Positions 28,142 through 64,000 of a stretch of 64,000 bases of DNA are shown here, piece after piece. This DNA is from Mugil cephalus. Taxonomy: Eukaryota; Chordata; Actinopteri; Mugiliformes; Mugilidae. Position numbers and translations under genes: made by a program. Where the stretch lies: positions 33,076,690-33,140,689 of the forward strand of contig NC_061771.1 of NCBI RefSeq assembly GCF_022458985.1, read 5' to 3'. Numbering within the stretch: the stretch's first letter is position 1; the number at the start of each line of letters is the position of its first letter. Under the pieces are notes generated by a model that saw only the letters and a list, made by a program, of their open reading frames with translations, searched no databases and was not told the origin of the DNA.

Positions 28142-28472
28142 TCAACTGAATCTAATCGAATGTAATCGAATCAAACAATGGTCAGTTTGTTCTAAGGGAT
28201 CAGCAGTTTGTGAAATACTTAGACTAACATCCATACCACATTCAAAGTCTTTTAAATCCACTTTCTTCCACATTCTGATGCTCAGTTTGAACTTCAGCAA
28301 GTTGTCTGAATCACCTCTACATGAATAAATGCATTGAATTGCAGCCATTTGATTGGCTGATTAGCTATGTTTTGCTAACAAGCAATTGAACAAGTGTAGG
28401 GTTAAAGCATAAAGGCATGACATAATCTTTCAAATGATGTCACATACCTGATATTTAGTTTGTCTGTTTCAG

Positions 28473-32606: not shown

Positions 32607-33489
32607 TCAGTTTGATCAGTTTATACTTCCATCATTATTACCATGTGCAGTAAATGTTCATTTACACCTACCATACACCTGTGTGTATTGTGCAGTTACC
32701 AGTCACTGAGAAGTTAAAATATGGTGGACTATTCCAGGGTATTTGTCCTACTGGATGCTAACACTGTAAAACATTACAGCCCCGTTAAGTTATGTGAATG
32801 TCTTAGTTCCCTTTATCTCCAATAGTCATGATGAGCTTTTGGTATTATATTGATTCAGGTTCATCAGGGTTTCAACAATTAAACTAAAATTAAAATAATC
32901 CTTTGACTGGACTTGGTGTTTATTTAGCTCATGTCTTCAGTTTTTGAGTTGGATAAAGTAATGGGGAGGAGGAGGACGATGTGATGAGAATACTGAGAAA
33001 CAGAGGCTGCTGCCATTTAGACATCTTTTAGATGAACAGAACTGTTACTATAAAACCATAATACCTTTGAAACAAAGCTCTATAAAAAGATTAAACCACG
33101 GGATTACAAGACCAGTCAAACCATTGGCACCATAATTGTAATGAGTGGGTGGATTTTAGCATTTTATCTACTACCAGAAAGGAATTGTAAAGTGGTTATT
33201 TTTGGTGAACCAAACATTAATGTCCTCCTCTGTGGACGGCATTAAGTGAGGTCTTTGTTCCATGCCAACACCGACCTTTGAACATCTTGTCAATATATCT
33301 GAAAATAAATGAACAAGTTGTGAGCTGAATCTACCTGGTGTTGAGATAAACTTTAAAACATTAATCATCAAGATGGGTAGTCTAAATTTAAACTATTTAG
33401 AAACGTTTGTTTGACATGAATATAGTAAAGTTGTTTAGTTCGTTCCATGGATAATGTGACTAATGTGAAGTGGTTTTAACTCATTGTAG
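32607..33489. other. Intron of deaminase copy 2
   Basis: No HAE-containing exon was found here or upstream, so the first zinc-motif half of the deaminase domain is absent from this copy. Confidence 0.45.
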
Positions 33490-34082
33490 AGTTAAAACGC
33501 AACCAAGAGGACGTGTCGGTTTTCTATGTCCTTGCATCACCATGTTCTAATAGATGTACAAGTGAAAAGAGTCAGTGGAGCATTCTGGGAAGCATTAGAC
33601 AGGTCATGATGTGGAGGAACGATGCTGTGGTTTTCTCTGATGTATTCAAGCCTCGTGATGGTTCAGACATTCCCGAGGAAGAACGTCGTAGAGCACTCGA
33701 ACGGCTTGGGGAAGACATCGGTCTTAGCAACATATTCCGATGCAATAAACAAAGCCATAATGAAATGCGCTGCACAAGCTGCTCCACTGGTGGTCACGTT
33801 ACACATCGTTGTCTCACAGATGGAAATCAACATTTACAATCTTGTCCCAGTTACAATTTGCCTTGTACTTCACTCATGGGTACATCCAAGCCCTGGAACA
33901 CAAAAGCTGCTGAATGTTTTTTCTCCTCACAAAATGACCCAAGGTTTAGCAGTGCAGACACTAGTAGGGTTACAGGGGATGAGAAGAATGAACCAGTTTC
34001 AAACTCATGTGTGGAGGACATCATAACGCATGCCTCAGTGAAGTTTATTTGTTGTATCTATCGTTGTCCCACAAGAAAATAA
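33490..34082 (+). pseudogene. Deaminase-like gene copy 2, C-terminal exon
   Basis: After the acceptor CATTGTAG the exon encodes VFYVLASPCSNRCTSEKSQW, then IFKP-equivalent DVFKPRDG and LGEDIGLSNIFRC, aligning throughout with copy 1 (FYVFASPCVEKC, IFKPKNG, LGGSVGLNNIFRC). The PCxxxC zinc half is intact. The C-terminus is about 75 residues longer than in copy 1 and ends at a TAA (34080-34082). Because the HAE half is missing and exon 1 is frameshifted, the copy is probably catalytically dead. A non-enzymatic secreted protein remains possible if the frameshift is an assembly error. AATAAA at about 34439. Confidence 0.7.
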
Positions 34083-36525: not shown

Positions 36526-36608
36526 CTGTGAAGGTTCTCAGTCATCCAGGTCATGGTAATCCAAAAAAGCGTTGAATAAGGTCAGCTGGACTTGTAGAAT
36601 TTCTTGAA

Positions 36609-36629
36609 GACGTTTCGCCACTCATCCGA
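36609..36629 (-). ncRNA. Hammerhead-ribozyme-like core (minus arm)
   Basis: Mirror copy of 40403-40423. See that entry for the base-by-base comparison; identical sequence on the opposite strand. Confidence 0.3.
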
Positions 36630-36828
36630 GTAGCTTCTTCAGTTCTGATGAACTAGTGGGAAATTGAGGTTTAAATAGGAAAAAACTCTGTGGGTAGCAC
36701 CCACCAGAAACTTGCTTGACCAGAAACTGGGGTCACTAATTGCCATAATGGCTGATACTTACCTGTCCTTGAATGGGGGGAACTGTGTGCCTAGGCTAAC
36801 TTACCCTATGAATAGAGCTCTAACGAGG

Positions 36829-38499
36829 CTATTGTCCATGGGAACCTGGGGGCTCAATGTGTGAATGTTGTTGAAACTTCTTTGGGACAGAAGTCAAAAC
36901 TGAATTATAAATAGTTGGTAAATTAAATCTCAGTCCACCTCCTCTGTTTAGAGAAGGTTTCTCCATTTTGACATAGATGGCTTCCTTAACTCCTCTCTCA
37001 AACCATCTGTCCTCTCTGGCCAGGACTTTGACGTTGTTATCCTCAAAGGAGTGTCCTTTGTCCTTCAGGTGGAGGTGGACTGCTGAGTCGTTTCCTGATG
37101 AGCTGGCTCTCCTGTGTTGGGCCATGCGCTTGTGTATGGGTTGTTTGGTTTCCCCAATGTACAGGTCTGTACATTCCTCGCTACACTGAACCGCGTACAC
37201 TACATTGCTCTGTTTCTGTCTAGGTGTTTTGTCCTTGGGGTGGACCAGTTTCTGTCTTAGGGTGTTTCCAGGTTTGAAATAAACTGGGATGCGGTGTTTA
37301 CCAAAAATTCTCCTTAGTTTCTCTGATACCCCAGCTATGTAGGGGATGGTGATGTTCTTCCTTCTGTTTTGTTCCTCTTCCCTGTCCTTCCTGGGATATC
37401 TTTTTGAGCCTTTGACAAAGGCCCAGTTGGGATATCCGCATGTCTTGAGGGTTTGTTTAATGTGTGTTCCCTCCTTGTCCTTGCCATCCTGTCTGGTGGG
37501 GACAGTCTGTGCTCGGTGCTGGAGGGTTCTGATGACTCCCAGTTTGTGTTCCAGGGGGTGGTGTGAGTCAAATAACAGGTGTTGATCTGTGTGTGTGGGT
37601 TTCCTATATACTTCTATGTTGAGGCTTCGATCTTCTTCAACACGTACCAAACAGTCCAAAAAGGCCAGACAGGCCCCGCTGATGTCCTCCCTGGTGAACT
37701 TGATGTTGCTGTCCACTGTGTTGATGTGTTTAGTGAAAGATTCCACCTCCTTTGTCTTGATTTTAACCCAGGTGTCGTCCACATATCTGTACCAGTGGGT
37801 GGGAGTGGAACCTGCAAAGGTGTCCAGAGCTCTGGTCTCTACTTCCTCCATGTAGAGATTGGCCACGATCGGTGACACTGGGGACCCCATCGCACAGCCG
37901 TGTTTTTGCCTGTAGAAACCTCCATTGAACTCAAAGTAGGTGGTGGTCAGGCACAGGTCGAGTAACACACAGACTTGTTCTGGGGTGAGGTTGGTTCTTG
38001 AGGCCAAGGTGTCATCCTTTTGTAGTCTTTTCCTTACTACATCCGTGGCTTCTCTCGTGGGGATGCAGGTGAACAGAGAGGTGACATCAAAGGACACGAT
38101 GGTTTCTTCTGGGTCCAGTGTGATGTCCTTGACTTTGTTCACAAAGTCCCTGGAGTTTTCGATGTGGTGTGGGGTGTTGCCTACTAATGGAGAGAGGATG
38201 GATGCCAAATGCTTGGCAATGTTGTATGTGACAGAGTTGATGCTACTGACAATGGGTCTGAGTGGGGCTCCCTCCTTGTGTATTTTGGGGAGACCATAAA
38301 TACACGGTGTGGCTTCCCCTGGGTACAGACGGTAATAAAGGAGTCTGTCGATGACCTTTTCCTTTTCCAGTTGTTGTAGGTAGTTTATTATTCTGGTTTT
38401 GTAGATGTTGGTTGGGTCGCGTCTCAGTGTCTCATAAGTGTCTTGGTCGTTGAGGAGGTTGTTCATTTTTGCCTGGTAGTCCACCGTGTTTAACACCAC
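36829..38499 (-). CDS. Penelope-like reverse transcriptase/GIY-YIG protein (minus arm)
   Basis: Open frame of 556 aa. RT domain in the first ~300 residues: YGLPKIHKEGAPLRPIVSS, IVSFDVTSLFTCIP, CAMGSPVSPIVANLYME and the catalytic HWYRYVDDTWVK (YVDD). The C-terminal GIY-YIG endonuclease appears as VVYAVQCSEECTDLYIGETK followed by RMAQHRR. This is the Penelope/Neptune arrangement, lineage of vertebrate PLEs. Starting at VLNTVDY puts the N-terminus right at the palindrome centre, so part of a natural N-terminus (usually longer in PLEs) is probably missing. No stops or frameshifts inside. Function: nicking target DNA and priming reverse transcription of the element's RNA. Confidence 0.92.
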   Translation of the reverse strand: MVLNTVDYQAKMNNLLNDQDTYETLRRDPTNIYKTRIINYLQQLEKEKVIDRLLYYRLYPGEATPCIYGLPKIHKEGAPLRPIVSSINSVTYNIAKHLASILSPLVGNTPHHIENSRDFVNKVKDITLDPEETIVSFDVTSLFTCIPTREATDVVRKRLQKDDTLASRTNLTPEQVCVLLDLCLTTTYFEFNGGFYRQKHGCAMGSPVSPIVANLYMEEVETRALDTFAGSTPTHWYRYVDDTWVKIKTKEVESFTKHINTVDSNIKFTREDISGACLAFLDCLVRVEEDRSLNIEVYRKPTHTDQHLLFDSHHPLEHKLGVIRTLQHRAQTVPTRQDGKDKEGTHIKQTLKTCGYPNWAFVKGSKRYPRKDREEEQNRRKNITIPYIAGVSEKLRRIFGKHRIPVYFKPGNTLRQKLVHPKDKTPRQKQSNVVYAVQCSEECTDLYIGETKQPIHKRMAQHRRASSSGNDSAVHLHLKDKGHSFEDNNVKVLAREDRWFERGVKEAIYVKMEKPSLNRGGGLRFNLPTIYNSVLTSVPKKFQQHSHIEPPGSHGQ

Positions 38500-38532
38500 T
38501 GTGCATCGCCAGCAGACAAAGGGAGATGCACA

Positions 38533-40203
38533 GTGGTGTTAAACACGGTGGACTACCAGGCAAAAATGAACAACCTCCTCAACGACCAAGACACTTATGA
38601 GACACTGAGACGCGACCCAACCAACATCTACAAAACCAGAATAATAAACTACCTACAACAACTGGAAAAGGAAAAGGTCATCGACAGACTCCTTTATTAC
38701 CGTCTGTACCCAGGGGAAGCCACACCGTGTATTTATGGTCTCCCCAAAATACACAAGGAGGGAGCCCCACTCAGACCCATTGTCAGTAGCATCAACTCTG
38801 TCACATACAACATTGCCAAGCATTTGGCATCCATCCTCTCTCCATTAGTAGGCAACACCCCACACCACATCGAAAACTCCAGGGACTTTGTGAACAAAGT
38901 CAAGGACATCACACTGGACCCAGAAGAAACCATCGTGTCCTTTGATGTCACCTCTCTGTTCACCTGCATCCCCACGAGAGAAGCCACGGATGTAGTAAGG
39001 AAAAGACTACAAAAGGATGACACCTTGGCCTCAAGAACCAACCTCACCCCAGAACAAGTCTGTGTGTTACTCGACCTGTGCCTGACCACCACCTACTTTG
39101 AGTTCAATGGAGGTTTCTACAGGCAAAAACACGGCTGTGCGATGGGGTCCCCAGTGTCACCGATCGTGGCCAATCTCTACATGGAGGAAGTAGAGACCAG
39201 AGCTCTGGACACCTTTGCAGGTTCCACTCCCACCCACTGGTACAGATATGTGGACGACACCTGGGTTAAAATCAAGACAAAGGAGGTGGAATCTTTCACT
39301 AAACACATCAACACAGTGGACAGCAACATCAAGTTCACCAGGGAGGACATCAGCGGGGCCTGTCTGGCCTTTTTGGACTGTTTGGTACGTGTTGAAGAAG
39401 ATCGAAGCCTCAACATAGAAGTATATAGGAAACCCACACACACAGATCAACACCTGTTATTTGACTCACACCACCCCCTGGAACACAAACTGGGAGTCAT
39501 CAGAACCCTCCAGCACCGAGCACAGACTGTCCCCACCAGACAGGATGGCAAGGACAAGGAGGGAACACACATTAAACAAACCCTCAAGACATGCGGATAT
39601 CCCAACTGGGCCTTTGTCAAAGGCTCAAAAAGATATCCCAGGAAGGACAGGGAAGAGGAACAAAACAGAAGGAAGAACATCACCATCCCCTACATAGCTG
39701 GGGTATCAGAGAAACTAAGGAGAATTTTTGGTAAACACCGCATCCCAGTTTATTTCAAACCTGGAAACACCCTAAGACAGAAACTGGTCCACCCCAAGGA
39801 CAAAACACCTAGACAGAAACAGAGCAATGTAGTGTACGCGGTTCAGTGTAGCGAGGAATGTACAGACCTGTACATTGGGGAAACCAAACAACCCATACAC
39901 AAGCGCATGGCCCAACACAGGAGAGCCAGCTCATCAGGAAACGACTCAGCAGTCCACCTCCACCTGAAGGACAAAGGACACTCCTTTGAGGATAACAACG
40001 TCAAAGTCCTGGCCAGAGAGGACAGATGGTTTGAGAGAGGAGTTAAGGAAGCCATCTATGTCAAAATGGAGAAACCTTCTCTAAACAGAGGAGGTGGACT
40101 GAGATTTAATTTACCAACTATTTATAATTCAGTTTTGACTTCTGTCCCCAAGAAGTTTCAACAACATTCACACATTGAGCCTCCAGGTTCCCATGGACAA
40201 TAG
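38533..40203 (+). CDS. Penelope-like reverse transcriptase/GIY-YIG protein (plus arm)
   Basis: Identical in amino-acid sequence to the minus-arm ORF and arranged head-to-head with it, start codons 33 bp apart across the palindrome centre. Carries the same YVDD RT catalytic box and the C-terminal ECTDLYIGETK...RMAQHRR GIY-YIG endonuclease. The 3' UTR (40204-40470) includes CCTATTTAAACCTCAATTTC and the hammerhead-like motif. Both arms being 5'-truncated at the same base suggests one event made the pair. Without a promoter or full N-terminus the protein may not be competent. Confidence 0.92.
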   Translation: MVLNTVDYQAKMNNLLNDQDTYETLRRDPTNIYKTRIINYLQQLEKEKVIDRLLYYRLYPGEATPCIYGLPKIHKEGAPLRPIVSSINSVTYNIAKHLASILSPLVGNTPHHIENSRDFVNKVKDITLDPEETIVSFDVTSLFTCIPTREATDVVRKRLQKDDTLASRTNLTPEQVCVLLDLCLTTTYFEFNGGFYRQKHGCAMGSPVSPIVANLYMEEVETRALDTFAGSTPTHWYRYVDDTWVKIKTKEVESFTKHINTVDSNIKFTREDISGACLAFLDCLVRVEEDRSLNIEVYRKPTHTDQHLLFDSHHPLEHKLGVIRTLQHRAQTVPTRQDGKDKEGTHIKQTLKTCGYPNWAFVKGSKRYPRKDREEEQNRRKNITIPYIAGVSEKLRRIFGKHRIPVYFKPGNTLRQKLVHPKDKTPRQKQSNVVYAVQCSEECTDLYIGETKQPIHKRMAQHRRASSSGNDSAVHLHLKDKGHSFEDNNVKVLAREDRWFERGVKEAIYVKMEKPSLNRGGGLRFNLPTIYNSVLTSVPKKFQQHSHIEPPGSHGQ

Positions 40204-40402
40204 CCTCGTTAGAGCTCTATTCATAGGGTAAGTTAGCCTAGGCACACAGTTCCCCCCATTCAAGGACAGGTAAGTATCAGCCATTATGGCAATTAGTGAC
40301 CCCAGTTTCTGGTCAAGCAAGTTTCTGGTGGGTGCTACCCACAGAGTTTTTTCCTATTTAAACCTCAATTTCCCACTAGTTCATCAGAACTGAAGAAGCT
40401 AC

Positions 40403-40423
40403 TCGGATGAGTGGCGAAACGTC
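40403..40423 (+). ncRNA. Hammerhead-ribozyme-like core in PLE tail
   Basis: TCGGATGAG-TGG-CGAAAC-GTC matches the hammerhead layout C-U-GAUGAG / stem II / CGAAAC / (G)UC cleavage triplet, except that U4 of CUGAUGA is G here. The stem II loop is very short, and the ACGT around stem III is self-complementary, which would suit a dimer rather than a monomer. Hammerhead motifs are known in the terminal repeats of PLEs. Stem I pairing is not convincing from the sequence. The same string is preserved in the solo end at 9308-9460 apart from CTAATCC, which changes GGATGAG to GGATTAG. Confidence 0.3.
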
Positions 40424-40470
40424 TTCAAGAAATTCTACAAGTCCAGCTGACCTTATTCAACGCTTTTTTG

Positions 40471-40487
40471 GATAAAAAGCCCTGTGT
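40471..40487. repeat. Target-site duplication, right (17 bp)
   Basis: GATAAAAAGCCCTGTGT, same as 36509-36525. The host segment resumes directly as GAATGTGTGCGTGGGC. Confidence 0.85.
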
Positions 40488-41475: not shown

Positions 41476-43307
41476 ACTAAATCAATGGGGCGCACGCACG
41501 CACATAACACAACGCCGTAGTACATCTACTTACGGTGCTTTATTCAAACATGCCGCAGAGGGATGGCACAATGGATGCCAAATACATTGCTTCTACAATA
41601 TTAATGAAATACTGAGTCACTTTGACAATATGCTGAGCTAACAACAAGCGCATGTATCCTGCTGCACTGATGTGACACCAGAGAGGAGGATTTACTTTAG
41701 AAGGATCTTGTCCACATGGGAAGATTTCTGTTGGTCTTAATCACTGGTGATAATGAGAGAATAAAGGGCACCCACTGCTTATTTGTTTACTTTTGAATTT
41801 GTTCTGAATGAATGTTTGTGTGCATTTTAAACCAGGAGTCCATTGTGTTTACACAATATAGTCTCTTGATTCTTGATTCTGTAATTCACACCTTGTCTTC
41901 TGTGTTTTCCAGACAGCAGAGTGGTTGGAAAGGAAGAATTCTGATGGCAGAGTCTGTGTTGGTGTCAGCAGGCACAAGACGACCACGATGCAAATAGCTA
42001 CATTTGCCCTGACTGGGGAGGAGGAGGCAGTAAGTTCTCTAACAGGCTGAAATGGCTCACCATGTGTTACAGCGACACATTTAGCAACTCCACAGACATT
42101 AACTTCATTCATATTCTGTCTCCACAGATATTTCAGGCATATTTTAAACATATCCGCGCAAAGTCTGTCGACCAAGTTTTAGACGATGAAGGCAGATTTT
42201 TCCTGTCCAAATGGGGCCAGCCCATTGCAAGTGCCACCAATGATGTAGCTCGTCTGCACGAGTAGTAAGTAACAACAGGAGGCCATGCATATGCTGTGTG
42301 TACTGTGCAGATCAAGAGGGTTGGGGAGAGAAAGAGAAAATGAAAATGATGCAGAAGAGAGGCAGAGAGGAAGAGAGTGATTTGGAAGAGAAAGGAACAG
42401 AACATGACGGCGTTTCTCTCCAAATTCCCAGTAACATTGAATGGGCAGCCTCCCTGCAAGCGGACCAGAGTCAGTGCTGGGTTCAGTGAAGGCAGGGTGC
42501 TGTATGACAGGTGGAGGGTTATGCAGCGTGGCATGCGGGAGGATCATCTCTTGTGTAAGTGTAAATACGTAGACACTCAATGATTAGGTTGGGTATACAT
42601 GACATCTAAAGCTCACAAGTGTGCAACTTTAATGTGAATGTTCTCTCCTCTGTTACAGCCGTGTTTGTGAGACGAGCACCCACGGTTCAGACTGTGGCAA
42701 GGCGCATCGAGAAGGAGGGCTGGAGTGGCAACACTCCCCAAGCACAGCTGGTAGTGTCCAAGTGGCGTCCACCCACTCAGACACAGGTGGAAAGTGACCC
42801 AAGGATCATAAAGAAGGTCACCACTCAGAAGTGGTCAGGTCTGACCATCAAGGATTTTGGTGAGCCAAAGGGGAAAGGTATGTGCAAATGTCTTGTGAGC
42901 ACAGTCAAAGCCTAACACAAATACAATCATATCGTGAACAGCCTCATTAATCTCACCTCCCTTTGCCCACAGGAGTTGTTGCCACCAAGTGCTTTTCAAA
43001 GGGCTCCATAATCTGCGATTACCATGGCAGGGTAATCACGAAGGCAGAGGGGAAAAGAATGATGCAGAGCATGGACAACGAGATGGGCTACCTTTTCTTC
43101 TTTCAAAAGCTCTGCGTGGACGCCCAGACATTCCCCTGTGAGTGTCATCCGCACATGGAGACAGTGGGACGGCTCATGAACCACTCAAAGAAAAGGTTCA
43201 ATGCAAAGCCCCGCCGCTGCAAGCTAAAGCAGACTGCAGCTGCAGAAGACTCCTTGTTTTTCGCCTGGAGTCCTGTGTCTCTGACCAGTAAATCTGTGGA
43301 TCTGTGA
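41476..43307 (+). mobile_element. Tyrosine recombinase-SET element, copy 1 (partial)
   Basis: Exons recognised: 41913-42029 (TAEWLERKNSDGRVCV..., recombinase core), 42128-42264 (IFQAYFKHIRAKSVDQ...ARLHE), a fused remnant ending 42554, 42659-42877 (VFVRRAPTVQTVARRIEKEG), and 42973-43307 (SET domain start). Splice sites around these are intact. The exon holding the catalytic Tyr is missing: intron sequence joins directly, near 42345, to the middle of the next exon. All upstream exons (zinc finger, RPGAVEGM box) are also absent. The unit begins within the intron before the TADW exon, right after the LTR-like segment. The SET portion keeps GVVATKCFSKGSIICDYHG and GRLMNHSKK but loses GEEIRFDYG because the last part is replaced by unrelated sequence ending in SVDL. 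Non-functional as a recombinase. Confidence 0.75.
42973..43307 (+). pseudogene. KMT5A-like SET domain, C-terminally replaced (copy 1)
   Basis: Acceptor CCCACAG at 42966-42972. Encodes GVVATKCFSKGSIICDYHG, CVDAQTFPCECH and GRLMNHSKKRFNAKPRR (Asn of NHS at 43179-43181), matching KMT5A's GVFATKQFSRG, YHG, CVDA and GRLINHSK in order. After KPRRCKLKQ the frame departs from the family and ends at TGA, losing the tyrosine-bearing FDYG motif needed for activity. Confidence 0.8.
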
Positions 43308-44130
43308 TCTGAACAGAGGTGAGACTCTCAAGCACATGTATCCTGCTGCACTGATGTGAAACCAGAGAGAAAGATTAACTTGGATCTTGTCCACATGGGA
43401 AGATTTCTGTTGGTCTTAACAATTACAATGAGAGAATAAAGGGCACTTTGTGTTCATTCTTTTGTTTTTTATTATTTGTAGTAAGCGTAGTAACAACGGG
43501 AGGCCACTGTGCAGATCAAGAGGGTTAGGGGTTAATGACGTATACTGAGCCTTGCATTCAATAAATATGATTAAGAGAAAATGAAATCATTCAGTGCTGA
43601 GAGTGAATGGATTTGTGCTCCTTTGCAGCTTTGGAACTGGAGATTGCCAACCCTTTCTGAAGGGAGCAGGAGCAGCAGACTGGTGTGGCTCGGTACACGG
43701 CCCATTCAACCTCCGTTGCAAAGCAGCATTACCGGATGAGGACGCGCCAGGAGACCGGTGTCACTGGGAACGTGCTGCAGAGCTTTAGAAGGTATGCATG
43801 GTGGTCTGAAACACAGAGAAAGTCCTGTGTTCTCACTGCGGCGTCTCCCTTCTAACCAATGCCTCTCTCTCTCTCTCTCTCTTTCAATGCAGCTCAAAGA
43901 CATTCTTGTCAAAGCCCTCAGCGAGCTCTTGAGGAGCAGTAAACACATTGGTCTTCAAACCTCAGACTTTCGTTCTTGGGCAATGAAAACATCTGAATTT
44001 TCAGTCCTTCAGTCCGACTTGTGGGACCCTCCAGGGATGCTTCCAGGACTGTCCAGGGACATTCAGGATAAGCCGGACAAAACAATTTCCCTGCATTGTT
44101 GGGCCCAGCCACGCATTTAGTTCCAATTTC
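43308..44130 (+). mobile_element. Recombinase-SET element scraps
   Basis: 43320-43480 repeats the intron string CATGTATCCTGCTGCACTGA...GACAATGAGAG found at 41660-41770. 43480-43550 repeats the intron after the ARLHE exon. 43625-43791 is a degraded version of the catalytic-Tyr exon (AGACTGGTGTGGCTCGG..., TTGCAAAGCAGCATTACCGG) with frameshifts. A (CT)n run lies at 43861-43884. 43894-44120 holds an open stretch beginning LKDILVKALSELLRSSKHIG with no family assigned. The fragments are out of order relative to the full unit. Confidence 0.6.
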
Positions 44131-49772: not shown

Positions 49773-50407
49773 TTCATCACTACTGATTCCACTGATTTTC
49801 ACATCCCACCGGTTTAACCCGTTATGTTTTGGGTATTCGATTATTTTCTGTGAAATAAAGTACTGGTTAATTCCCTCCCGCTCTTGTCCCTCCCATGTGC
49901 TTTGTTGTAACAAATGGGGACTCGTCGGCGTCTCAGTTACGTTACCTTTTTTGAGTTTTGTTACGGAGTAGCAAGAGGTCCTTTGCTCACCTGTCAGGGT
50001 TAGGTGACATGCTGTGGAGGCGCATTTCTGGAGGTTCCCGTTAGGTTTACGGCACTTTCTCCTTTGGGATTGTGTCCGTTTGTTTTTTTTCATAGTGTTG
50101 TGGGGAGCAGCTAGTGTTGGTTGCGCAAGCAACCATCTTGGGGGCACTCCGTGGGATTGCTTGTGGTGGTCCCGCTGGTTTTGTGCTTAATCGACCCGCT
50201 GCAGAACCGCATGAAGACCAGGGTTGAGTTTAGTCAGATTCTGGGTTAGGCAGTTAGGGGAACGCTCTGGGGGGCATTGTTGCTCATTTGTGCATCCAGC
50301 AGTGTCGATCCGGCTCTCAGGTGAATATGGATAGTTTGTTAGCTTTTTACGAAGCGCCTTGTGCAGTGTTTTTGGAGTGTGCAGTTCCCAAGTTTTGAGA
50401 ACTGCAC
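49773..50407 (+). mobile_element. Gmr1-like gypsy element 5' part (LTR end, leader, gag start)
   Basis: AAATAAAGTACTGG then TTGTTGTAACAAATGGGGAC and TCGTCGG resemble an LTR poly-A region, LTR 3' end and the GGGGGCTCGTCC-type leader of vertebrate gypsy elements. An ATG at 50327 opens a 23-codon gag-like frame (MDSLLAFYEAPCAVFLE) ending at TGA; most of gag and protease is deleted. LTR limits not determined. Confidence 0.5.
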
Positions 50408-51055
50408 GTGATGAAAGTGGTCACCCTGGCGTGTAAAAAATCTGTCGGTGCTCAAACAATTTTTTTTTTTTTTCTGGCCACAGGCCAAGAAAGATGTAAG
50501 ATGCCTTTGCCTAGTGCTAAGTCGGGTTCTAAGTATCTGTTGACTGTAATGTGTCAGTGTACTCGTTACCCAGCTGCTTATCCGCTTTGTTCCATCACCA
50601 CCAAAGCGGTAGTTAAAGCAGTAGCACAGTTTATTTCAGTGTTCGGAATACCCAAGGTCATACAGAGTGATCGGGGGTCGAATTTTACTTCGCATATGTT
50701 TGCTAAAGTGTTAAATCTGCTGGGAGTGAGCCACAATCGGTCCACTCCGTATCGTGCGCAAAGTAGGGGTGCGTTAGAACGATTCCATCAGACGCTGAAA
50801 TCCCTGCTGGGGCAGGCTCAGGTGAAAATGAAAGCCCGGTATGACCAGGGTACGGTGCGCCATGAATATAGTCCTGGGGACCAGGTCCTCGCGCCGACAC
50901 CGCTGGTCACGTCACCATTTCAGGCTAAATTTCTTGGCCCGTATACTGTGTCTGAAAAAGTTTCTGGTGTTAACTATTGTGTCGCTACACCAGGTCGAAG
51001 AAGGTCGTCTCTGCTATATCATGTGAACCTGCTGAAGCCGTATTACCAGAGGTGA
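50408..51055 (+). pseudogene. Ty3/gypsy (Gmr1-like) integrase, internally deleted
   Basis: Integrase core: GSKYLLTVMCQCTRYPAAYP, VFGIPKVIQSDRGSNFTS (second Asp of the DDE triad) and PYRAQSRGALERFHQTLKS (the Glu). The segment with the first Asp is lost; a poly-T run at 50461-50473 marks the junction. After KSLLG the frame skips to QAQVKMKARYDQG, a deletion of the usual C-terminal stretch, and ends FLGPYTV...LLYHVNLLKPYYQR, the normal integrase C-terminus of these elements. It lies upstream of RT on the same strand. Confidence 0.8.
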
Positions 51056-52538: not shown

Positions 52539-52936
52539 TCAAGAATCCAGCCATTCCAGGTCCAGTCCTTCCCCTGAGAATGACTGCCTGCACACGCCGT
52601 AGTCAAAGCGGATCTCCTCACCCACTTCGATGTCCTTGCTGGCCAGGAGGAGGATGGTGTCTGTTTCTCCTTGGGGTAGCTTTAGCTTGCAGCGACGGGG
52701 CTTTGCGTTGAACCTTTTCTTCGAGTGCTTCATGAGCCGTCCCACTGTCTCCGTGTGCGGATGACACTCACAGGGGAACGTCTGGGCGTCCACGCAGAGC
52801 TCTTGAAAGAAGAAAAGGTAGCCCATCTCATTGTCCATGCTCTGCATCATTCTTTTCCCCTCTGCCTTTGTGATTACCCTGCCATGGTAATCGCAGATTA
52901 CGGAGCCCTTTGAAAAGCGCTTGGTGGCAACAACTC
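52539..52936 (-). CDS. KMT5A-like SET domain exon (copy 2)
   Basis: Last exon of copy 2, ending with its own stop codon. In order it shows GVVATKRFSKGSVICDYHG, CVDAQTFPCECHPH, GRLMKHSKKRF, TILLLASKDIEVGEEIRFDYG and a C-terminal LEWLDS. KMT5A, which monomethylates histone H4 Lys20, has GVFATK.FS.GD, YHG, CVDA, GRLINHSK, LILIASRDIAAGEELLYDYG and a terminal WL at matching places, so the resemblance spans the whole domain rather than generic SET motifs. The cofactor-binding Asn of NHS is Lys here (codon 52730-52728, AAG), a likely inactivating change since the other two copies keep NHS. Confidence 0.85.
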
Positions 52937-53701
52937 CTGTGGGCAAAGGGAGGTGAGATTAATGAGGCTGTTCACGATATGATTGTATTTGTGTTAGGCT
53001 TTGACTGTGCTCACAAGACATTTGCACATACCTTTCCCCTTTGGCTCACCAAAATCCTTGATGGTCAGACCTGACCACTTCTGAGTGGTGACCTTCTTTA
53101 TGATCCTTGGGTCACTTTCCACCTGTGTCTGAGTGGGTGGACGCCACTTGGACACTACCAGCTGTGCTTGGGGAGTGTTGCCACTCCAGCCCTCCTTCTC
53201 GATGCGCCTTGCCACAGTCTGAACCGTGGGTGCTCGTCTCACAAACACGGCTGTAACAGAGGAGAGAACATTCACATTAAAGTTGCACACTTGTGAGCTT
53301 TAGATGTCATGTATACCCAACCTAATCATTGAGTGTCTACGTATTTACACTTACACAAGAGATGATCCTCCCGCATGCCACGCTGCATAACCCTCCACCT
53401 GTCATACAGCACCCTGCCTTCACTGAACCCAGCACTGACTCTGATCCGCTTGCATGGAGGCTGCCCATTCAATGTTACGGGGAATTTGGAGAGAAACGCT
53501 GTCATGTTCTCCGTTTCTTTCTCTTCCGAATCAGTCTCTTCCTCTCTGCCTCTCTTCTGTGACTGACCAGCCCTCCCGTCAGTTGAATCCTCAGGAGAAG
53601 ATCTGCAAGATTAAAAAGGTTACTAACCACTGACAATCAGATCAGACCTCTTTATGGCAAATAATGACTCAATGTTGTGTGTATCAGACCACCGTGCATA
53701 C

Positions 53702-53899
53702 CCTCTTAAGCTCTGCAGCAGGTTGCTAGTGACAACAGTCTTGTGAAGTGTCCTCATCCGATAATGTTGCTTTGCAACGGAGGTTGAATGGGCCATGTAG
53801 TGCGCCACACCAGACTGCTGCTCCTCTGTGAAGGTGTTGGCCGCCTCCGTTTCTACAACCCTCCTGATCTCCCGACTCGTCACATTCTCACATTTGTAG
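53702..53899 (-). CDS. Tyrosine recombinase catalytic exon (copy 2)
   Basis: 198-nt exon encoding CENVTSREIRRVVETEAANT then GVAHYMAHSTSVAKQHYRM. SREIRR corresponds to the second catalytic Arg box, and AHS...HY to the His/Trp box plus the nucleophilic Tyr of phage-integrase-type enzymes. The exon has the same length in the plus-strand copy (63220-63417). Its acceptor is mutated here (CCAA for GCAG), so normal splicing would skip or misuse it. Confidence 0.8.
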
Positions 53900-54763
53900 T
53901 TGGAATGGAGCAGAAATCTCAGATGACACATCCACTCACTGCACTGAATGATTTCATTTTCTCTTTCTCTCCCCAACCCTCTTGATCTGCACAGTACACA
54001 CAGCATATGCATGGCCTCCTGTTGTTACTTACTACTCGTGCAGACGAGCCACATCATTGGTGGCACTTGCAATGGGCCAGCCCCATTTGGACAGGAAAAA
54101 TCTGCCTTCATTCTCTACTTCTGGGTCGACGGACTTTGCGCGGATATGTTCAAATTGTGCCTGAAATATCTGTGGAGACAGAATATGAATGAAGTTAATG
54201 TCCGGAGTTGCTAAATGTGTCGCTGTAACACATGATGAGCCATTTCAGCCTGTTGGAGAACTTACTGCCTCCTCCTCCCCAGTCAGGGCAAATGTAGCTA
54301 TTTGCATTGTGGTCGTCTTGTGCCTGCTGACACCAACACAGACTCTGCCATCAGAATCCTTCCTTTCCAACCAGTCTGCTGTCTGGAAAACACAGAAGAC
54401 AAGGTGTGAATTACAGACATCAAGAATCAAGAGACTATATTGTGTAAGAACAATGGACTCCTGGCTTTAAATGCACACACATAATACACAGCCATTCATA
54501 TAAAACAAAAGAATAAGCAGAGGGTGCCCTTTATTCTCTCATTATCACCAATGATGAAGACCAACAGAAATCTTCCCATGTGGACAAGATCCTTGTAAAG
54601 TAAACACTCCTCTCTGGCTTCACTTTAATGTGAGCATGGCTCTGTCTGTGGCTGCGGGGGACGGTGCATGTCTGAGATTGCTGCAAGGTGTGAACAGATT
54701 TTAGAGTAACACTGTTGTTACTAGATTCTGGCTGAGCCTTGTTTTAAGGGGAAAAGTACTTAC

Positions 54764-54969
54764 TGTCATTCCTTCCACTGCTCCTGGTCTCTGGAAGTGC
54801 CCCAAGATCATTATGGCCTCACAGTAATAGCGCAAATGTGTTACCGCATCCTCACTTGGTGAAATGAAGCGATTTAATAGTTCCATGGTATTGAGCGTCT
54901 CCTTCCTTGCAACAGTCAGTACCTTCTGACCGTCCTCGATGCTCTTCTGCCCCCATGAAGTACTTATAC
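54764..54969 (-). CDS. Tyrosine recombinase Arg-box exon (copy 2)
   Basis: Starts at acceptor TTATTCAAG and encodes GQKVLTVARKETLNTMELLN then YYCEAIMILGHFQRPGAVEG, ending MT at GTAAGT. RPGAVEG fits the first catalytic Arg motif of tyrosine recombinases (R-x-G-E/A-x-x-x-L/M). Joined to 55421-55124 best through the donor ATAT|GTAAAA, which keeps the frame and restores a Cys codon. Confidence 0.7.
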
Positions 54970-55878
54970 CTTGAATAAAACACAAGACCACAATGAGGAG
55001 CAGCACTACATGTTTCTGTATCACATAACCTCAGTGTAGAGCGGACTGATGAGTATCAGTGACACAAGAGAACTCGTAAAAGGAGACAAAGAGTAGGCAG
55101 ATTAACAACTGACCTGGTTTTACATATGGCCTTACTGTTTTCCTTGGCCACTGACTTTCTCGTGACACAGAGGTAGTCGATGTAGGTCTGGCACTTCCTG
55201 TGGAAGTCTGGGTCCTTCACACCAACATGAAGAAAGGTCTTCGCATACTGCACAAACCGGATCATGTTCTTTATGTAGTTGAGGATCGTGGCCGGACTCA
55301 ACTTGGCAAGTTTCAGGTCTCGCAGGTAATCGCTGACTTCAGTGCTTTTAGTGAGGAAATCTAAGCTCACTTCATCCCCTTCAGGCTGGATGTATCTCAG
55401 CATCCTGGAGACATTGTCCACCTGTCATGAAAGATGAAGAGAAGCGTGAAATGGTGCAAGAAAGCAGAGCCATGTGTGCTGAACTCTCTCTGACACAGAG
55501 TGCATCTTTTTAAATAATATCCAGTGGTCTAGTAAGTCTCGTCTTATCTCTCTCCCTCACTCACTCACTCACACATACTGTGGAGCTTCAGAAGAGCATA
55601 GATTCAGGGTTATCTCTTACCTCCTGTTGGCAGTTTGGCACATTTAAGAAGTCGATCAAATGCCTCTTGAACCCCATCAGCATTTTACAATCGACTGGGA
55701 ACTTCTGGTAGAGGCCCCTTGTCTGCATGTTCATCCGCACACAATTCTGGGAGAACTGAGGTGGATTTCTGAAAGAACAAAGCAACGTTAGTTTCAAATC
55801 TGCAGACTGCAACCTTGGTGAAACTGAAGCTGATCACTGTTTGAACTGGTGTGTGTCACACCGATGCGATGAACTTAC

Positions 55879-56262
55879 CTTTGCCATGGTGGGTCATGTG
55901 AGCCAGCATCATCATCGTGGGAATCAGTGGACCCCTCTTCACCAGTGCTTGAAGGCTCTACAGCACTGGCAGGTTCCTCCGTGGCAGCTGCACTCGCTGG
56001 TGGCATTTGGATGGGCTCCAAGTCTGCTGGGTTGGGGGCGTTGGCCATGAAAAAAACCCTGGTGTGAAGGTCCTCCAGCAGAGCCAGTGTTGTTGCTCTG
56101 TCTGGGGAGCACTTGCACATGGTATTGTAGTCCCAGTTTCGGCCACCGCGTGTCCACGCCTTCATAGAGTCCTTGGCCCTCTTCAGCTCTGTCTGCCTCT
56201 CTTCATGACTGCTGTTCTTCATGCAGACCCGGGAAAGGTGGAGCGTTCCCCGGCCAACCAGT
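55879..56262 (-). CDS. Zinc-finger/acidic linker exon (copy 2, 5'-chimeric)
   Basis: Encodes HLSRVCMKNSSHEERQTELK, a basic region (WTRGGRNWDYN), then an acidic low-complexity linker rich in PASAVEPSSTGEEGST and DDD, ending PPWQ-R at donor CAAAG|GTAAGT. The CxxC half of the finger seen in copy 3 (HCLLCEKPQD) is missing because the sequence upstream of the CCACCTTTCCC junction comes from another exon of the same unit. Confidence 0.65.
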
Positions 56263-57036
56263 CTGCTGTCTGAAAAACACAGCAAGACAAGGATTGAATT
56301 ACAGACATCAAGAGTCAAGGGACTATATTGTGTAAACACAATGGACTCCTGGTTTAAAATGCACACGCATAATACACACAAACATTCATATAGAACAAAT
56401 TCAAAAGTAAACGAGTAAGCAGAGGGTGCCTTTATCCTCTCATTATCACCAGTGATTAAGACCAACAAATCTTCCCATGTGGACAAGATCCTTAAGTAAA
56501 TCCTCCTCTCTGGTGTCACATCAGTGCAGCAGGATACATGCGCTTGTTGTTACCTCAGCATATTGTCAAAGTGACTCAGTATTTTATTAATATTGTAGAA
56601 GCAATGTATTTGGCATCCATTGCGCCATCCCTCTGTGGTATTTGAATAAAGCACCGTAAGTAGATGTTGCTGTTGTCCTAAAGGTTGGGTCAATTAAACT
56701 GAGTTGAACATTGTGCTGGAGGTTGGCTGAGTGTTGGCTGGTGGTCACGGTGACTGTTGGAGCCATTTTCCCCAGTCAGGCTTTAGTGGCGTTGCTCCTT
56801 TGGGCTTCGCTGGGTTTTTTCTTTTTTTTTCTGTTCTCTCTCCAGTAGTGCTGCGGTGAAAGTGGTTAGAGCTCTGTCTCAGGAGCATGGCCGTGGTTAT
56901 AGGTTTGTTGCCAGTTAATGGTAGCTTTCCCATGCCAGCGGTCTCCAGTGCATAAATACCCATCACAAGTACCCTCATGAAGACTAGGGCTGCGTGAGTT
57001 CAGTCAGTTTTGGAACGGTAGTTTAGTTAGAGGGGA
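56263..57036 (-). repeat. Shared 5' flank of recombinase-SET copies (inverse of 41.1-41.9 kb)
   Basis: On the minus strand this reads LTR-like segment (57010-56690), then CATCTACTTACGGTGCTTTA, then the recombinase-SET intron, then the first bases of the TADW exon. This is the same order as 41090-41930 on the plus strand, lacking ~60 bp (ACAATGTGCACAC...GTAGTA). Confidence 0.65.
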
Positions 57037-57305: not shown

Positions 57306-58668
57306 TTCCACCTGTGTCATGTCTCACTTTAACTGTCTAGATCTGACAGAACTTGACAATATTGTTGGTCACCAACCTGCTGCCTGGATCCTCTCCCAAC
57401 TGCATTTTTCAAAACTGTCTTTAACTCCCGAGCACCAGAGGTTCTACATGTCATTAACTGGTCTCTTCAGTCAGGTATATTTCTCACGTCACTAAAAACA
57501 GCTGTCATCAAACCACTCCTGAAGAAGAACAATCTGGATCAATGTGTCATTGCAAATTACAGGCCCATCTCCAACTTACCATTTCTTAGCAAAATACTTG
57601 AAAAAACAGTTTACATTCAGCTCAAGAATTATCTGGCATCAAATAGCCTTTTAGACACTTATCAGTCTGGTTTTCGTCCCCACCATAGCACAGAAATGGC
57701 ACTTATTAAAGTTATAAATGATCTACGTATAAACACAGATTCCAAAAAACTCTCGATTCTTGTTCTACTTGATCTTAGCTCTGCATTTGACACCGTTGAC
57801 CACAAAATCTTACAGGAAAGGCTTGAAAGGTGGGTTGGCTTGTCTGACCCAGTTCTAAATTGGTTCAGAACCTACCTTTATGATCGGCAGTTTTATGTCT
57901 CCATTGGTGAATTCAATTCGAACAAAGTGAACTTTATATGTGGGGTACCTCAAGGGTCAATTCTTGGACCACTGCTGTTCAGTCTCTACATGCTTCCACT
58001 CTCTCATGTCATACGCAAACATAATCTTAGTTACTAGTCCTAGTTAGTAATGGTTTATTCACTGGTCTCCCGAATTCAAGTATTCAGAGGTTACAACTAA
58101 TTCAAAATGCAGCTACACGTATTCTGACTAGAAGCAAAAAATATCAACACATCACACCCGTTAAATCTTTGCACTGGTTACCTGTTAGAACGAGAATCAA
58201 TTTCAAAACACTGCTCCTGGTTTATAAAGCACTACATGGTCTTCCACCTCAGTACATCACAGATATGCTCATCACTTACACCCCAGCAAGAACACTTCAG
58301 TCAACAGGCAGTGGCCATTTACTCATCCCTCGCACCAGATCCAAAGAAGGGGAGGCAGCTTTTAGTGAATATGCCCCACAAACATGGAACACCTTGCCTG
58401 ACGCAGTTAGACATTTACATCAGTAGCCATCTTTAAACACAGATTAAAAACCTTCTTTTTCCAACAGCATTCTGCTGAGCTGTGTGTGTGAGTTTAAGTG
58501 TGTATGTGGTGACATATATATGATTGTTTACTTGCACTTATACCTTTCAATTGATTCCAAACTGATTTTTATGGCACTGTTTGTATTGTAACTATGTTTA
58601 CCTCTTGTAAAGCACATTGAGTCTGCCTTGTGCATGAAATGCGCTTTATAAATAAAATTGAATTGAAA
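57306..58668 (+). mobile_element. L2-type LINE, internally deleted, with complete 3' end
   Basis: RT motifs: LKTAVIKPLLKKNNLD, NYRPISNLPFLSKILEK, YQSGFRPHHSTEMALIK, LVLLDLSSAFDTVDHK, ICGVPQGSILGPLLFSLYML. It then jumps near 58030-58050 past the YADD box to GLPNSSIQRLQLIQNAATRI, LHWLPVRTRINFKTLLLVYK and GEAAFSEYAPQTWNTLP. The 3' end GCGCTTTATAAATAAAATTG + AATTGAA is the standard L2 terminus. The loss of the catalytic YADD makes it dead. Confidence 0.88.
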
Positions 58669-59050: not shown

Positions 59051-59999
59051 CTTTTTGGGGGCTCGTCCACTTCTAATGCGCTCTGGAGGCTGATCATTTG
59101 TTACGCTGCTGATGTTGTGGTGTTGTACCACAGATCAGTGTTATCTATAGGGAAGATGCAGACAGGCTGGTGTGTTGCAAACTGTGTCTGGATTTACATT
59201 GTGCGATTGACATTTTCTTTTGTTGCCTGCCGTGTCTTTTGAGCGTGATTAGGCTCCTAGGCTGAAAAACAGTGCACTCTTGTTTGTACCTCCCAACAGT
59301 TTGGGATAGTGTCTGGTGCACTTTCTTCCTCTGGTTGCTGTTCTCCCAAGTATAGTCTGAGTGTTTGGGTGTGTGAGTACACTCACATGGATGCTGCATC
59401 TTAGCTGGAGTTTGCTTGTTGTTGTCTGTGTGACAAGCAACACGGTCCTCTCGCTCTCCAGTTCATTCTGATGACTTTCACATAAATCTGTGTTTTCGTT
59501 CAGTCCCTCCATTGAACTTTTTGAGCGCATCGCCAAAGCATTGAAATGGCCGAAGGGAATTTGCTTTTACAGTGTGTTTATAGGGGCAACGTTTAGGACG
59601 CGTATGCATCGTTGCCATCACAAGCCAGCCTTGATTATGATGACGTGTGTTGCTGTGCTAAGGGCTCGCGAGCTTTTGTCTGAGGCGAATCATCAGAGAT
59701 TCCATAAGCTTAAAAAGACAGACACTGTTGCATATGTTGAGTTTGACAGAGATGAACAGGCCACTGTGACCCCCCCCTCCCCCCCCCCCCAGAATGTTTT
59801 AAATCCACATATCTGGGGTCCCTGGAAAGCACAGACCATGACCTTTATTTTGATGTTACAACAAAATCCCACCATGCTGGCCTGAGATAAACAGCTTATG
59901 AAGAGAACAACATTTAACATGTACCAGGTCATCGCCCAGGTTTGACCTTACATGACCAGACTGCCCCCCCACTCCCCGCCAGAATTTTTTCATCGTTAC
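59051..59999 (+). other. Probable gypsy leader and gag remnant
   Basis: Frame 59490-59885 begins FSFSPSIELFERIAKALKWP, which could be a gag N-terminal remnant, but no zinc knuckle or protease follows. C-rich tract at 59769-59790. Assignment is weak. Confidence 0.35.
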
Positions 60000-60479
60000 A
60001 TCGCAGCAAGGTAGCTGCTCTGCTACGTACGAAACCCTGACCCAGAATCAGGTCGTCTGCAAGTGATTTAGCACCAGGTTCTCCACAAACATGTATTGCG
60101 AGATGGGAGGGGGCGACCATTGTCCGGCCGCGCCCCAGCCCCATCACAAGCGGCTCTCCTTCACCGGCACGGTCGCCGGCTATCCGAGACCAACCGAAGA
60201 TCCACGGCGCTACGGTATCGTTACGTCTAGGCGGGATTCTGACTTAGAGGCGTTCAGTCATAATCCCACAGATGGTAGCGTCGCACCATTGGCTCCTCAG
60301 CCAAGCACATACACCAGGGGGCTTGACGCCAGAAACGAGAGCCCGCTCGGAGCTCGAACTCCCCGCCTCACCGGGTAAGTGAAAAAACGATAGGAGTAGT
60401 GGTATTTCACCAGCGGCCGAGGCCTCCCACTTTGTTCTACACCTCTCATGTCTCTTCGCAGTGCCAGACTAGAGTCAGG
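60000..60479 (-). rRNA. 28S rRNA 3'-region fragment with internal deletion (pseudogene)
   Basis: Read on the minus strand, 60479-60317 begins GACTCTAGTCTGGCACTGCG and runs through AGAGACATGAGAGGTGTAGA, GGTGAAATACCACTACTC and the CCCGGTGAGGCGGGG region. At 60317/60316 it jumps to TGGTGTATGTGCTTGGCTGA, then GGGATTATGACTGAACGCCT, CTAAGTCAGAATCCCGCC and GGTTTCGTACGTAGCAGAGC. Both are large-subunit rRNA sequence; roughly 500 nt between them are absent. The match stops at GCTGCGAT, a few tens of bases before the true 28S 3' end. A dispersed fragment, not a functional rDNA unit. Confidence 0.88.
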
Positions 60480-60600
60480 AAAACTAAATGAAATCCCTCT
60501 GATATTGGGCTACACAATGTTGATAGCCAGGAAAATGCTTCCTAGATGAAGCATGGTCATATTTTTACCCTCAGTATCAACCACTGATGTTATGTTATGA
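60480..60600 (+). repeat. ~120-bp direct repeat, copy 1
   Basis: AACTAAATGAAATCCCTCTG, ATAGCCAGGAAAATGCTTCC and CAACCACTGATGTTATGTT recur at 60856-60975 with few changes. Confidence 0.8.
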
Positions 60601-61069: not shown

Positions 61070-61498
61070 AAAGAAAGCAGATCGTCGTATCATCCACTGC
61101 CTGCTGTGTGAAAAACCACAAGATCTCCTCCCGCTCCACCTTTCCCGGGTCTGCATGAAGAACAGCAGTCATGAAGAGAGGCAGGCAGAGCTGCAGAGGG
61201 CCAAGGACTCTATGAAGGCGTGGACACGCGGTGGCCGAAACTGGGACTACAACACCATTTGCAAGCGCTCCCCAGACAGAGCAACAAGACTGGCTCTGCT
61301 GGAGGACCTTCACCACAGGGGGTTTTTCGTGGCCAACGCCCCCAACCCAGCAGACTTGGAGCCCATCCAAATGCCACCAGCGAGTGCAACTGCCACGGAG
61401 GAACCTGCCAGTGCTGTAGAGCCTTCAAGCACTGGTGAAGAGGGGTCCACTGATTCCCACGAGGATGATGCTGGCTCACATGACCCACCATGGCAAAG
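61070..61498 (+). CDS. Zinc-finger exon of recombinase-SET unit (copy 3)
   Basis: Acceptor TCTCACAG, then KKADRRIIHCLLCEKPQD and LLPLHLSRVCMKNSSHEERQ. The Cys-x2-Cys...His-x4-Cys spacing suggests a single C2HC-type finger, plausibly for binding element ends, as in DNA-transposon transposases. A basic WTRGGRNWDYN segment and an acidic Pro/Ser/Glu linker follow. Ends CAAAG|GTCAGT, phase 2; an upstream start exon must exist but was not identified. Confidence 0.7.
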
Positions 61499-61947
61499 GT
61501 CAGTTCATCGCATCGGTGTGACACACACCAGTTCAAACAGTGATCAGCTTCAGTTTCACCAAGGTTGCAGTCTGCAGATTTGAAACTAAAGCTGCTTTGT
61601 TCTTTCAGAAATCCACCTCAGTTCTCCCAGAATTGTGTGCGGATGAACATGCAGACAAGGGGCCTCTACCAGAAGTTCCCAGTCGATTGTAAAATGCTGA
61701 TGGGGTTCAAGAGGCATTTGATCAACGTCTTAAATGTGCCAAACTGCCAACAGGAGGTAAGAGATAACCCTGAATCTATGCTCTTCTGAAGCTCCACAGT
61801 ATGTGTGAGTGAGGGAGAGAGATAAGACGAGACTTACTAGACCACTGGATATTATTTAAAAAGATGCACTCTGTGTCAGAGAGAGTTCAGCACACATGGC
61901 TCTGCTTTCTTGCACCATTTCACGCTTCTCTTCATCTTTCATGACAG

Positions 61948-62355
61948 GTGGACAACGTCTCCAGGATGCTGAGATACATCCAGCCTGAAGGGGATGAAGT
62001 TAGCTTAGATTTCCTCACTAAAAGCACTGAAGTCAGCGATTACCTGCGAGACCTGAAACTTGCCAAGTTGAGTCCGGCCACGATCCTCAACTACATAAAG
62101 AGCATGATCCAGTTTGTGCAGTATGTGAAGACCTTTCTTCACGTTGGTGAAGAAAGACCGTTGCAGTCAGTACCTTCTGACTGCAACGGTCAGAAGGTAC
62201 TGACTGTTGCAAGGAAGGAGACACTCAATACCATGGAACTCTTAAATCGCTTCATTTCACCGAGTGAGGATGCGGTAACACATTTGCGCTATTACTGTGA
62301 GGCCATAATGATCTTGGGGCACTTCCAGAGACCAGGAGCAGTGGAAGGAATGACA
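61948..62355 (+). CDS. Recombinase N-terminal and Arg-box exon, intron lost (copy 3)
   Basis: Copy 2 has two exons here separated by a 154-bp intron. In copy 3 the end of the first (from VKDPDFHRKC on), the intron and the start of the second are gone. They are replaced by a 33-bp filler (62157-62189), the reverse complement of part of the second exon, yet the reading frame is preserved from VDNVSRMLRYIQPEGD to HFQRPGAVEGMT. Confidence 0.75.
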
Positions 62356-63219
62356 GTAAGTACTTTTCCCCTTAAAACAAGGCTCAGCCAGAATCTAGTA
62401 ACAACAGTGTTACTCTAAAATCTGTTCACACCTTGCAGCAATCTCAGACATGCACCGTCCCCCGCAGCCACGCACAGAGACATGCTCACATTAAAGTGAA
62501 GCCAGAGAGGAGTGTTTACTTTACAAGGATCTTGTCCACATGGGAAGATTTCTGTTGGTCTTAATCATTGGTGATAATGAGAGAATAAAGGGCACCCTCT
62601 GCTTATTCTTTTGTTTTATATGAATGGCTGTGTATTATGTGTGTGCATTTAAAGCCAGGAGTCCATTGTTCTTACACAATATAGTCTCTTGATTCTTGAT
62701 GTCTGTAATTCACACCTTGTCTTCTGTGTTTTCCAGACAGCAGACTGGTTGGAAAGGAAGGATTCTGATGGCAGAGTCTGTGTTGGTGTCAGCAGGCACA
62801 AGACGACCACGATGCAAATAGCTACATTTGCCCTGACTGGGGAGGAGGAGGCAGTAAGTTCTCCAACAGGCTGAAATGGCTCATCATGTGTTACAGCGAC
62901 ACATTTAGCAACTCCGGACATTAACTTCATTCATATTCTGTCTCCACAGATATTTCAGGCATATTTTGAACATATCCGCGCAAAGTCCGTCGACCCAGAA
63001 GTAGACGAGGACGGCAGATTTTTCCTGTCCAAATGGGGCCGGCCCATTGCAAGTGCCACCAATGTTGTGGCTCGTCTGCACGAGTAGAAAGTAACAACAG
63101 GAGGCCATGCATATGCTGTGTGTACTGTGCAGATCAAGAGGGTTGGGGAGAGAAAGAGAAACTGAAATCATTCAGTGCAGAGAGTGGATGTGTCATCTGA
63201 GATTTCTGCTCCATTGCAG

Positions 63220-63417
63220 CTACAAATGTGAGAATGTGACGAGTCGGGAGATCAGGAGGGTTGTAGAAACGGAGGCGGCCAACACCTTCACAGAGGAGCA
63301 GCAGTCTGGTGTGGCCCACTACATGGCCCATTCAACCTCCGTTGCAAAGCAACATTATCGGATGAGGACACTTCACGAGACTGTTGTCACTAGCAACCTG
63401 CTGCAGAGCTTAAGAGG
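63220..63417 (+). CDS. Tyrosine recombinase catalytic exon (copy 3)
   Basis: Intact acceptor CCATTGCAG and donor AGAGG|GTATGC. Encodes CENVTSREIRRVVETEAANT and VAHYMAHSTSVAKQHYRM with Tyr at 63356-63358. The exon itself is open, but the preceding donor is mutated, so it would not be joined normally to the upstream exons. Confidence 0.8.
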
Positions 63418-64000
63418 GTATGCACAGTGGTCTGAAACACACAACATTGAGTCATTATTTGCCTTACAGAGGTCTGACCTGATTGTCAGTGGTTAACCTT
63501 GAAACCTTTTTAATCTTGCAGATCTTCTCCTGAGGATTCAACTGACGGGAGGGCTGGTCAGTCACAGAAGAGAGGCAGAGAGTGATTCGGAAGAGAAAGA
63601 AACAGAACATGACGGCGTTTCTCTCCAAATTCCCAGTAACATTGAATGGGCAGCCTCCCTGCAAGCGGATCAGAGTCAGTGCTGGGTTCAGTGAAGGCAG
63701 GGAGCTGTATGACAAGTGGAGGGTTATGCAGCGTGGCATGCGGGAGGAGCATCTCTTGTGTAAGTGTAAATACGTAGACAGTCAATGATTAGGTCGGGTA
63801 TACATGACATCTACAGCTCACAAGTGTGAAACTTTAATGTGAATGTTCTCTCCTCTGTTACAGCCGTGTTTGTGAGACGAGCACCCACGGTTCAGACTGT
63901 GGCAAGGCGCATCGAGAAGGAGGGCTGGAGTGGCACGGCTTATGAACCACTCAAAGAAAAGGTTCAATGCAAAGCGCCGTCGCTGCACCATCCTCCTCCT

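Follow-up and report, generated by a model that had tools for sequence, protein, structure and literature searches.

The animal Cryptons (CryptonA/CryptonI, DUF3504), as presented in the portion of Kojima and Jurka 2011 cited here (PMC3212892), carry a eukaryotic tyrosine-recombinase domain and are without a C-terminal domain. Genes encoding KMT5A-like SET domains are numerous in some animals, with up to 65 in Hydractinia and 61 in sea urchin; the section of PMC10368294 that describes them gives most an N-terminal SET, mentions other domains in the longer ones and names no recombinase. In zebrafish, four SET genes lie in Region-2 of chromosome 4R, a repeat-rich block with abundant maternal 5S rRNA genes, and domains beyond SET are unstated in the relevant pages (PMC11075544). 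Cryptons and SET proteins are treated separately in the parts of PMC9406493 and PMC10380595 that bear on them. A recombinase-KMT5A fusion was not found in the literature searched, the scope of which left out subscription journals, preprints and Repbase.

The family described here, from Mugil cephalus, resembles each of these systems in part. It shares a eukaryotic tyrosine-recombinase domain with the animal Cryptons of PMC3212892, as that portion of the paper depicts them, but differs in having a C-terminal SET and no DUF3504 match, the direct comparison with a DUF3504 locus of the same genome (L038) scoring only 15.9, which is noise level. With KMT5A (SETD8/SET8), the H4K20 monomethyltransferase, it has in common the SET domain and, in most relatives, the NHS and FDY motifs; unlike KMT5A, its SET is joined to a finger and a recombinase, and one copy bears KHS. 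Compared by description, it recalls the Hydractinia and sea urchin expansions in its many divergent KMT5A-like SET genes, although its SET is C-terminal. The likeness to the zebrafish 4R genes is likewise one of description and not of sequence.

The window, C2:33076690-33140689, is the whole stretch of 64,000 nt that was analysed, in a genome of 634.8 Mb and 24 contigs. A further 180 kb (10,072 bases of it N) were fetched around SET-positive places, and the resulting 244 kb, window included, hold family copies at 12 places: c1 to c5 on C1, A to F on C2 and G on C18. Comparison of these sequences gives good support to the recombinase-SET fusion as an old gene structure of which one copy is open. 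The joining of a tyrosine-recombinase-like domain to a KMT5A-like SET, proposed in an earlier note on this DNA, is supported by the open copy c1, by dN/dS values below 1 in both halves between C1 and C2 copies and by a relic on C7.

Copy A (56269-52539, minus strand) consists of ten exons that form a single 799-codon frame with a stop at its end. AG precedes all ten exons and GT follows the first nine, which bears out the ten phase-compatible exons of the earlier note. Exon 1 (55879..56269; all exons of A on the minus strand) begins within a duplicated intron end, and for this reason the complete C-x2-C-x9-H-x4-C finger pattern is absent from A. The C2HC finger formerly ascribed to the joined unit is thus half lost in this copy, while the full pattern, read by eye, is present in copy C and c1. 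Exon 2 (55621..55768) is followed by a SAM-like, core-binding exon 3 (55114..55421) with a sub-threshold match to Phage_int_SAM_1. The recombinase part continues through exon 4 (54764..54962; box I, QRPGAVEG), exon 5 (54266..54382; the lysine of HKT), exon 6 (54033..54169) and exon 7 (53702..53938), which carries box II (SREIRR) and box III with the tyrosine (AHSTSVAKQHY). Exon 8 (53355..53602) encodes a charged linker and exon 9 (53032..53250) the linker before SET, the latter also present in c1, c2, c5, B, D and E. The entire KMT5A-like SET domain and the stop codon lie in exon 10 (52539..52936), where KHS stands at the NHS motif. Compared with c1, c2, c5, E, F and G, copy A is 2 nt short at the beginning of exon 4. 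The acceptor used by these relatives lies 7 nt upstream of that of A, which is open only by way of the shifted acceptor; several alternative acceptors for this exon were weighed by eye and the matter was settled by comparison with the relatives.

The motifs of copy A follow one another as RPGAVEG, SREIRR, AHS...HY, GVVATK, CVDA, GRLM.HS and GEEIRFDYG. The order previously reported therefore stands, with one correction: A reads GRLMKHS, and the GRLMNHS form is that of c1, c2, c5, B, D and E, whereas G has NHL and the motif is unreadable in C, F and c4. The SET domain of copy A is recognised by Pfam (E=1.3e-14), and the SET exon alone retrieves KMT5A from the PDB at 2.5e-14, with 14 of the 15 sequences at E up to 0.001 being KMT5A/SETD8. 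The fusion SET is 36% identical to a kmt5a-like gene on C8, so that a capture, if there was one, either is old or gave way to fast change. The C8 SET is apparently split by an intron before VDA, whereas the fusion SET occupies one exon.

Self-comparison of the window agrees with the earlier count of three units in both orientations, A being on the minus strand and B and C on the plus strand. Copy B (41913..43230, plus strand) retains exons 5 and 6, part of exon 8, exon 9 and part of the SET exon, with exons 1-4 absent and an exon 7 remnant downstream (43668..43815, plus strand). Copy C (61070..64000 and past the window end, plus strand) has an exon 1 (61070-61498) with the complete CCHC pattern, exons 2-9 with losses and a fused SET remnant; the losses affect exons 3, 4, 8, 9 and 10. 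Outside the window, c1 (C1:46609318-46613092) has all ten exons open over 816 codons and a complete finger pattern. Full-length copies with intact frames and defined termini had been suggested as a check of the idea; c1 supplies the open frame, and neither termini nor empty sites were recognised. Copies A to G as well as c2, c4 and c5 are each affected by a frameshift, a deletion, a stop or a change at a key residue: a single codon of c2 is broken, in exon 1; deletions are present in B, C, D and F; C and E each have a stop at the exon 6-7 junction; and G has four stops, one of them at the tyrosine. Copies c3 and c4 and exon 1 of c5 were considered as diverged paralogues, an idea set aside by eye since their homopolymer-like changes near assembly gaps suggest a poor consensus. 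The first coding exon of the family was not found in the copies examined.

The recombinase part was left unnamed by sequence searches of Pfam, PHROGs, NCBIfam and the PDB, in which all matches fell below curated cut-offs. Sub-threshold matches to core-binding domains were obtained (Phage_int_SAM_1 at 0.037, SAM_4 at 0.045, XerA at 0.04), the PHROGs matches were all weak and to families without a known function, and a match to TIGR02941 Sigma_B (2.8e-4, far under its 315-bit cut-off) was set aside as presumably due to chance. A search of the genome with PF00589 found nothing, PF12012 (DUF3504) was not listed for three family members at E up to 10, and in viral contigs, where the patterns picked out 7 stretches for the SET half and 6 for the recombinase half, no relative was confirmed. 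We compared profiles, using as reference an alignment of 46 viral-contig recombinases (80 loci were found with XerD, 48 were chosen and two with stops were dropped), a set gathered by likeness to XerD and for that reason not representative of all recombinases. With hhalign the family scored 33.5 against this alignment (P 4e-4, reported probability 34.9%), above all 120 shuffles (maximum 21.6 for 60 column shuffles and 25.3 for 60 local shuffles) and above the reversed profile (14.3), the linker-SET half (13.5) and the N-terminus (11.4). The DUF3504 locus L038 scored similarly, at 31.9.

The 46 XerD-like references all have R, H, R, H and Y, and 45 of them have K. The family residues, assigned by eye, are R, K, R, H and Y, with Arg in place of the first, box-II, His. 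Their spacings of 30, 89, 25 and 9 compare with 22-35, 62-143, 23-24 and 9 in the references, the R-H distance lying one residue outside; hhalign left box II unaligned. Wherever the box-II position is readable it is never His: c1, c2, c4, c5, A, C, E and G carry Arg, and a relic on C23 carries Gln. The complete R-H-R-Y catalytic set is hence absent from these copies. The box-III His is kept in c2, A, C, E and G, and c1 and c5 have Gln there. Together these comparisons support the middle part as what appears to be a very divergent tyrosine-recombinase-like domain.

We tentatively favour the reading of these copies as an old, clustered, multi-exon family encoding a single finger-recombinase-SET protein, derived from a recombinase-bearing element and a KMT5A-type SET and serving as a DNA-binding tether for the latter. 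The predicted product would comprise, in order, a CCHC finger, a core-binding domain, the tyrosine-recombinase-like domain, a charged linker and the KMT5A-like SET methyltransferase, and its most likely origin is the ancient joining of a recombinase-bearing element to a KMT5A-type SET. Because the box-II His is missing wherever it can be read, the finger and recombinase parts may now act mainly as a DNA-binding module. Such a module could tether the SET domain to particular DNA, where it would methylate a histone, probably at H4K20 as KMT5A does. The C2 copies presumably multiplied through segmental duplication, in regions that are rich in repeats and near rRNA sequences. If this is true, a vertebrate gene in which a transposon-type recombinase is combined with a histone methyltransferase would directly exemplify a chromatin writer that is targeted to DNA and assembled from mobile-element parts, and the family could be relevant to the so far unexplained presence of multi-copy KMT5A-like genes in other animals.

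Selection on the copies bears on a rather unlikely alternative, that of a dead gene family in which the fusion once worked and all copies are now pseudogenes spread mainly by segmental duplication. Between c1 and A, dN/dS is 0.33 in the recombinase (381 codons), 0.11 in SET (136), 0.69 in the linker (153) and 1.09 in the N-terminus (122). Recombinase and SET values are respectively 0.34 and 0.33 for c1-E, 0.56 and 0.41 for A-E, 0.54 and 0.25 for c1-G and 0.71 and 0.42 for A-G; c3 and c4 were left out of these estimates, and the N-terminal value for c1-c5 is affected by the poor consensus in c5 exon 1. These ratios suggest that the sequences were under constraint in the past, and the SET value of 0.11 for c1-A, like the 816 open codons of c1, argues against a family that is wholly dead. 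On the other side, A to G, c2, c4 and c5 are each damaged or altered and c1 itself has Gln at the box-III His. The recent pair c1-c2 shows no constraint, with 12 nonsynonymous against 3 synonymous changes (ratio 1.12), and exon identity does not exceed intron identity (0.953 vs 0.960 for c1-A, 0.873 vs 0.918 for c1-G). With exons no better kept than introns and the changes between c1 and c2 so distributed, present function is doubtful. Between c1 and A, synonymous divergence in the recombinase exons reaches 0.122, roughly threefold the intron divergence of 0.04.

That a Crypton-like transposon, active until recently, captured SET as a cargo shaping chromatin at its copies seems unlikely. It would account for the recombinase-like profile, for the relics on C7 and C23 and for an exon identity of about 95% between C1 and C2 copies and of 87-89% to the C18 copy. 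However, genome searches in which the best candidates were scored placed full-size copies only in the C1 and C2 clusters and once on C18, and neither termini nor target-site duplications nor empty sites were recognised around the copies; a gap of 500 N covers the left end of c1, so that element ends are possible there. No discrete insertions at unrelated sites were recognised either, the copies lying in clusters and duplicated blocks. Those on C2 are contained in duplicated homologous blocks of about 10 kb that include retroelement pieces, and homology among C1, C2 and C18 copies extends beyond the gene into satellite-like sequence. A 2.6-kb downstream probe had full-length matches only on C1 among the best 40 of 191 candidates; elsewhere the same 40 comprised pieces in the C2 and C18 clusters, one on C15 and short matches resembling dispersed repeats. 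The copies c1 and c2 flank a satellite array of about 24 kb in inverted orientation and share 98.9% identity over 6.3 kb. The missing box-II His and the lack of resemblance to the DUF3504 locus also speak against a recent transposon. Of the two proposals put forward by the earlier note, mobility of the unit finds no support here, and capture of a host gene by a transposon stays conjectural. The array between c1 and c2 (C1:46618407-46642970, L010-L013) consists of tandem units of about 1.3 kb, pieces of which also lie by G on C18.

Older branches of the family are represented by relics. That on C7 is broken; parts of exons 7, 8 and 9 and of SET still follow one another in the family order, at 47-54% amino-acid identity, and a second SET fragment lies upstream. 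The C23 relics hold pieces of exons 1-8, mostly at 50-70% identity over their better stretches. No SET of the family type was found on C23, and it was therefore either lost or decayed there or added after that branch. Two adjacent genes, a recombinase and a separate KMT5A-like gene, only apparently joined, might be read from the C23 relics without SET but are very improbable, since in both A and c1 the two halves are linked by their splice sites and phases, and the exon 7-8-9-10 order recurs in the C7 relic.

Several copies lie near rRNA sequences, an association noted post hoc with queries drawn from the clusters themselves. In the window, an internally deleted 28S rRNA fragment (59969..60507, minus strand) lies 5' of copy C and antisense to it, and 119 nt of it are also found 5' of c1 on C1, which is explained by duplication. 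On C18, copy G has 18S and 28S fragments at 1.6-2.6 kb on its 5' side; the C18 fragment recurs at four further genomic places, one of them 45 kb beyond the C1 cluster (chance about 0.002). The fetched C23 loci contain 5S genes in five of six cases and a U2 gene in the sixth (L032), and in L027-L030 the relic is preceded, 0.5-2.4 kb to its 5' side, by a 5S gene with the same orientation. Of the 47 best 5S matches scored among 18,731 candidates, 38 fall in the first 1.2 Mb of C23. Rfam, run over 40 sources, reported rRNA in seven (the window, L024 and L027-L031) and U2 in one; it reported no rRNA in the other C1/C2 cluster loci, the C7 relic (6 kb) or 14 unrelated loci. Insertion of the family into 28S was considered and rejected, Rfam having shown no 28S remainder at the other C1/C2 loci scanned. 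The first 1-2 Mb of C23 (L027-L032), a large 5S region with a U2 gene, recall zebrafish chromosome 4R.

An extension of our preferred reading of a tethered SET, and an improbable one, is that the finger and recombinase would guide the KMT5A-type SET to 45S and 5S rRNA gene regions. By marking H4K20 there, the enzyme would control whether rRNA genes are silenced, amplified or recombined, possibly in the germ line, and the family would be a counterpart of the zebrafish 4R SET/5S block. The position near rRNA sequences makes such a specific role testable.

The window has further features of its own. Retroelement fragments flank copy A on both sides, with a reverse-transcriptase match (RVT_1) at 57357-58037 and an integrase at 50399-51055. 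An assembly gap of 500 N occupies 21428-21927. A near-perfect inverted repeat at 36559-40473, with two arms of 1952 nt around an 11-nt spacer, may be a fold-back assembly artefact; each arm has a 569-aa frame, and RVT_1 was found in the arm scanned. Finally, open frames at 28459-29046 and 33480-34082 match SNAD1 (secreted AID/APOBEC-like deaminases).
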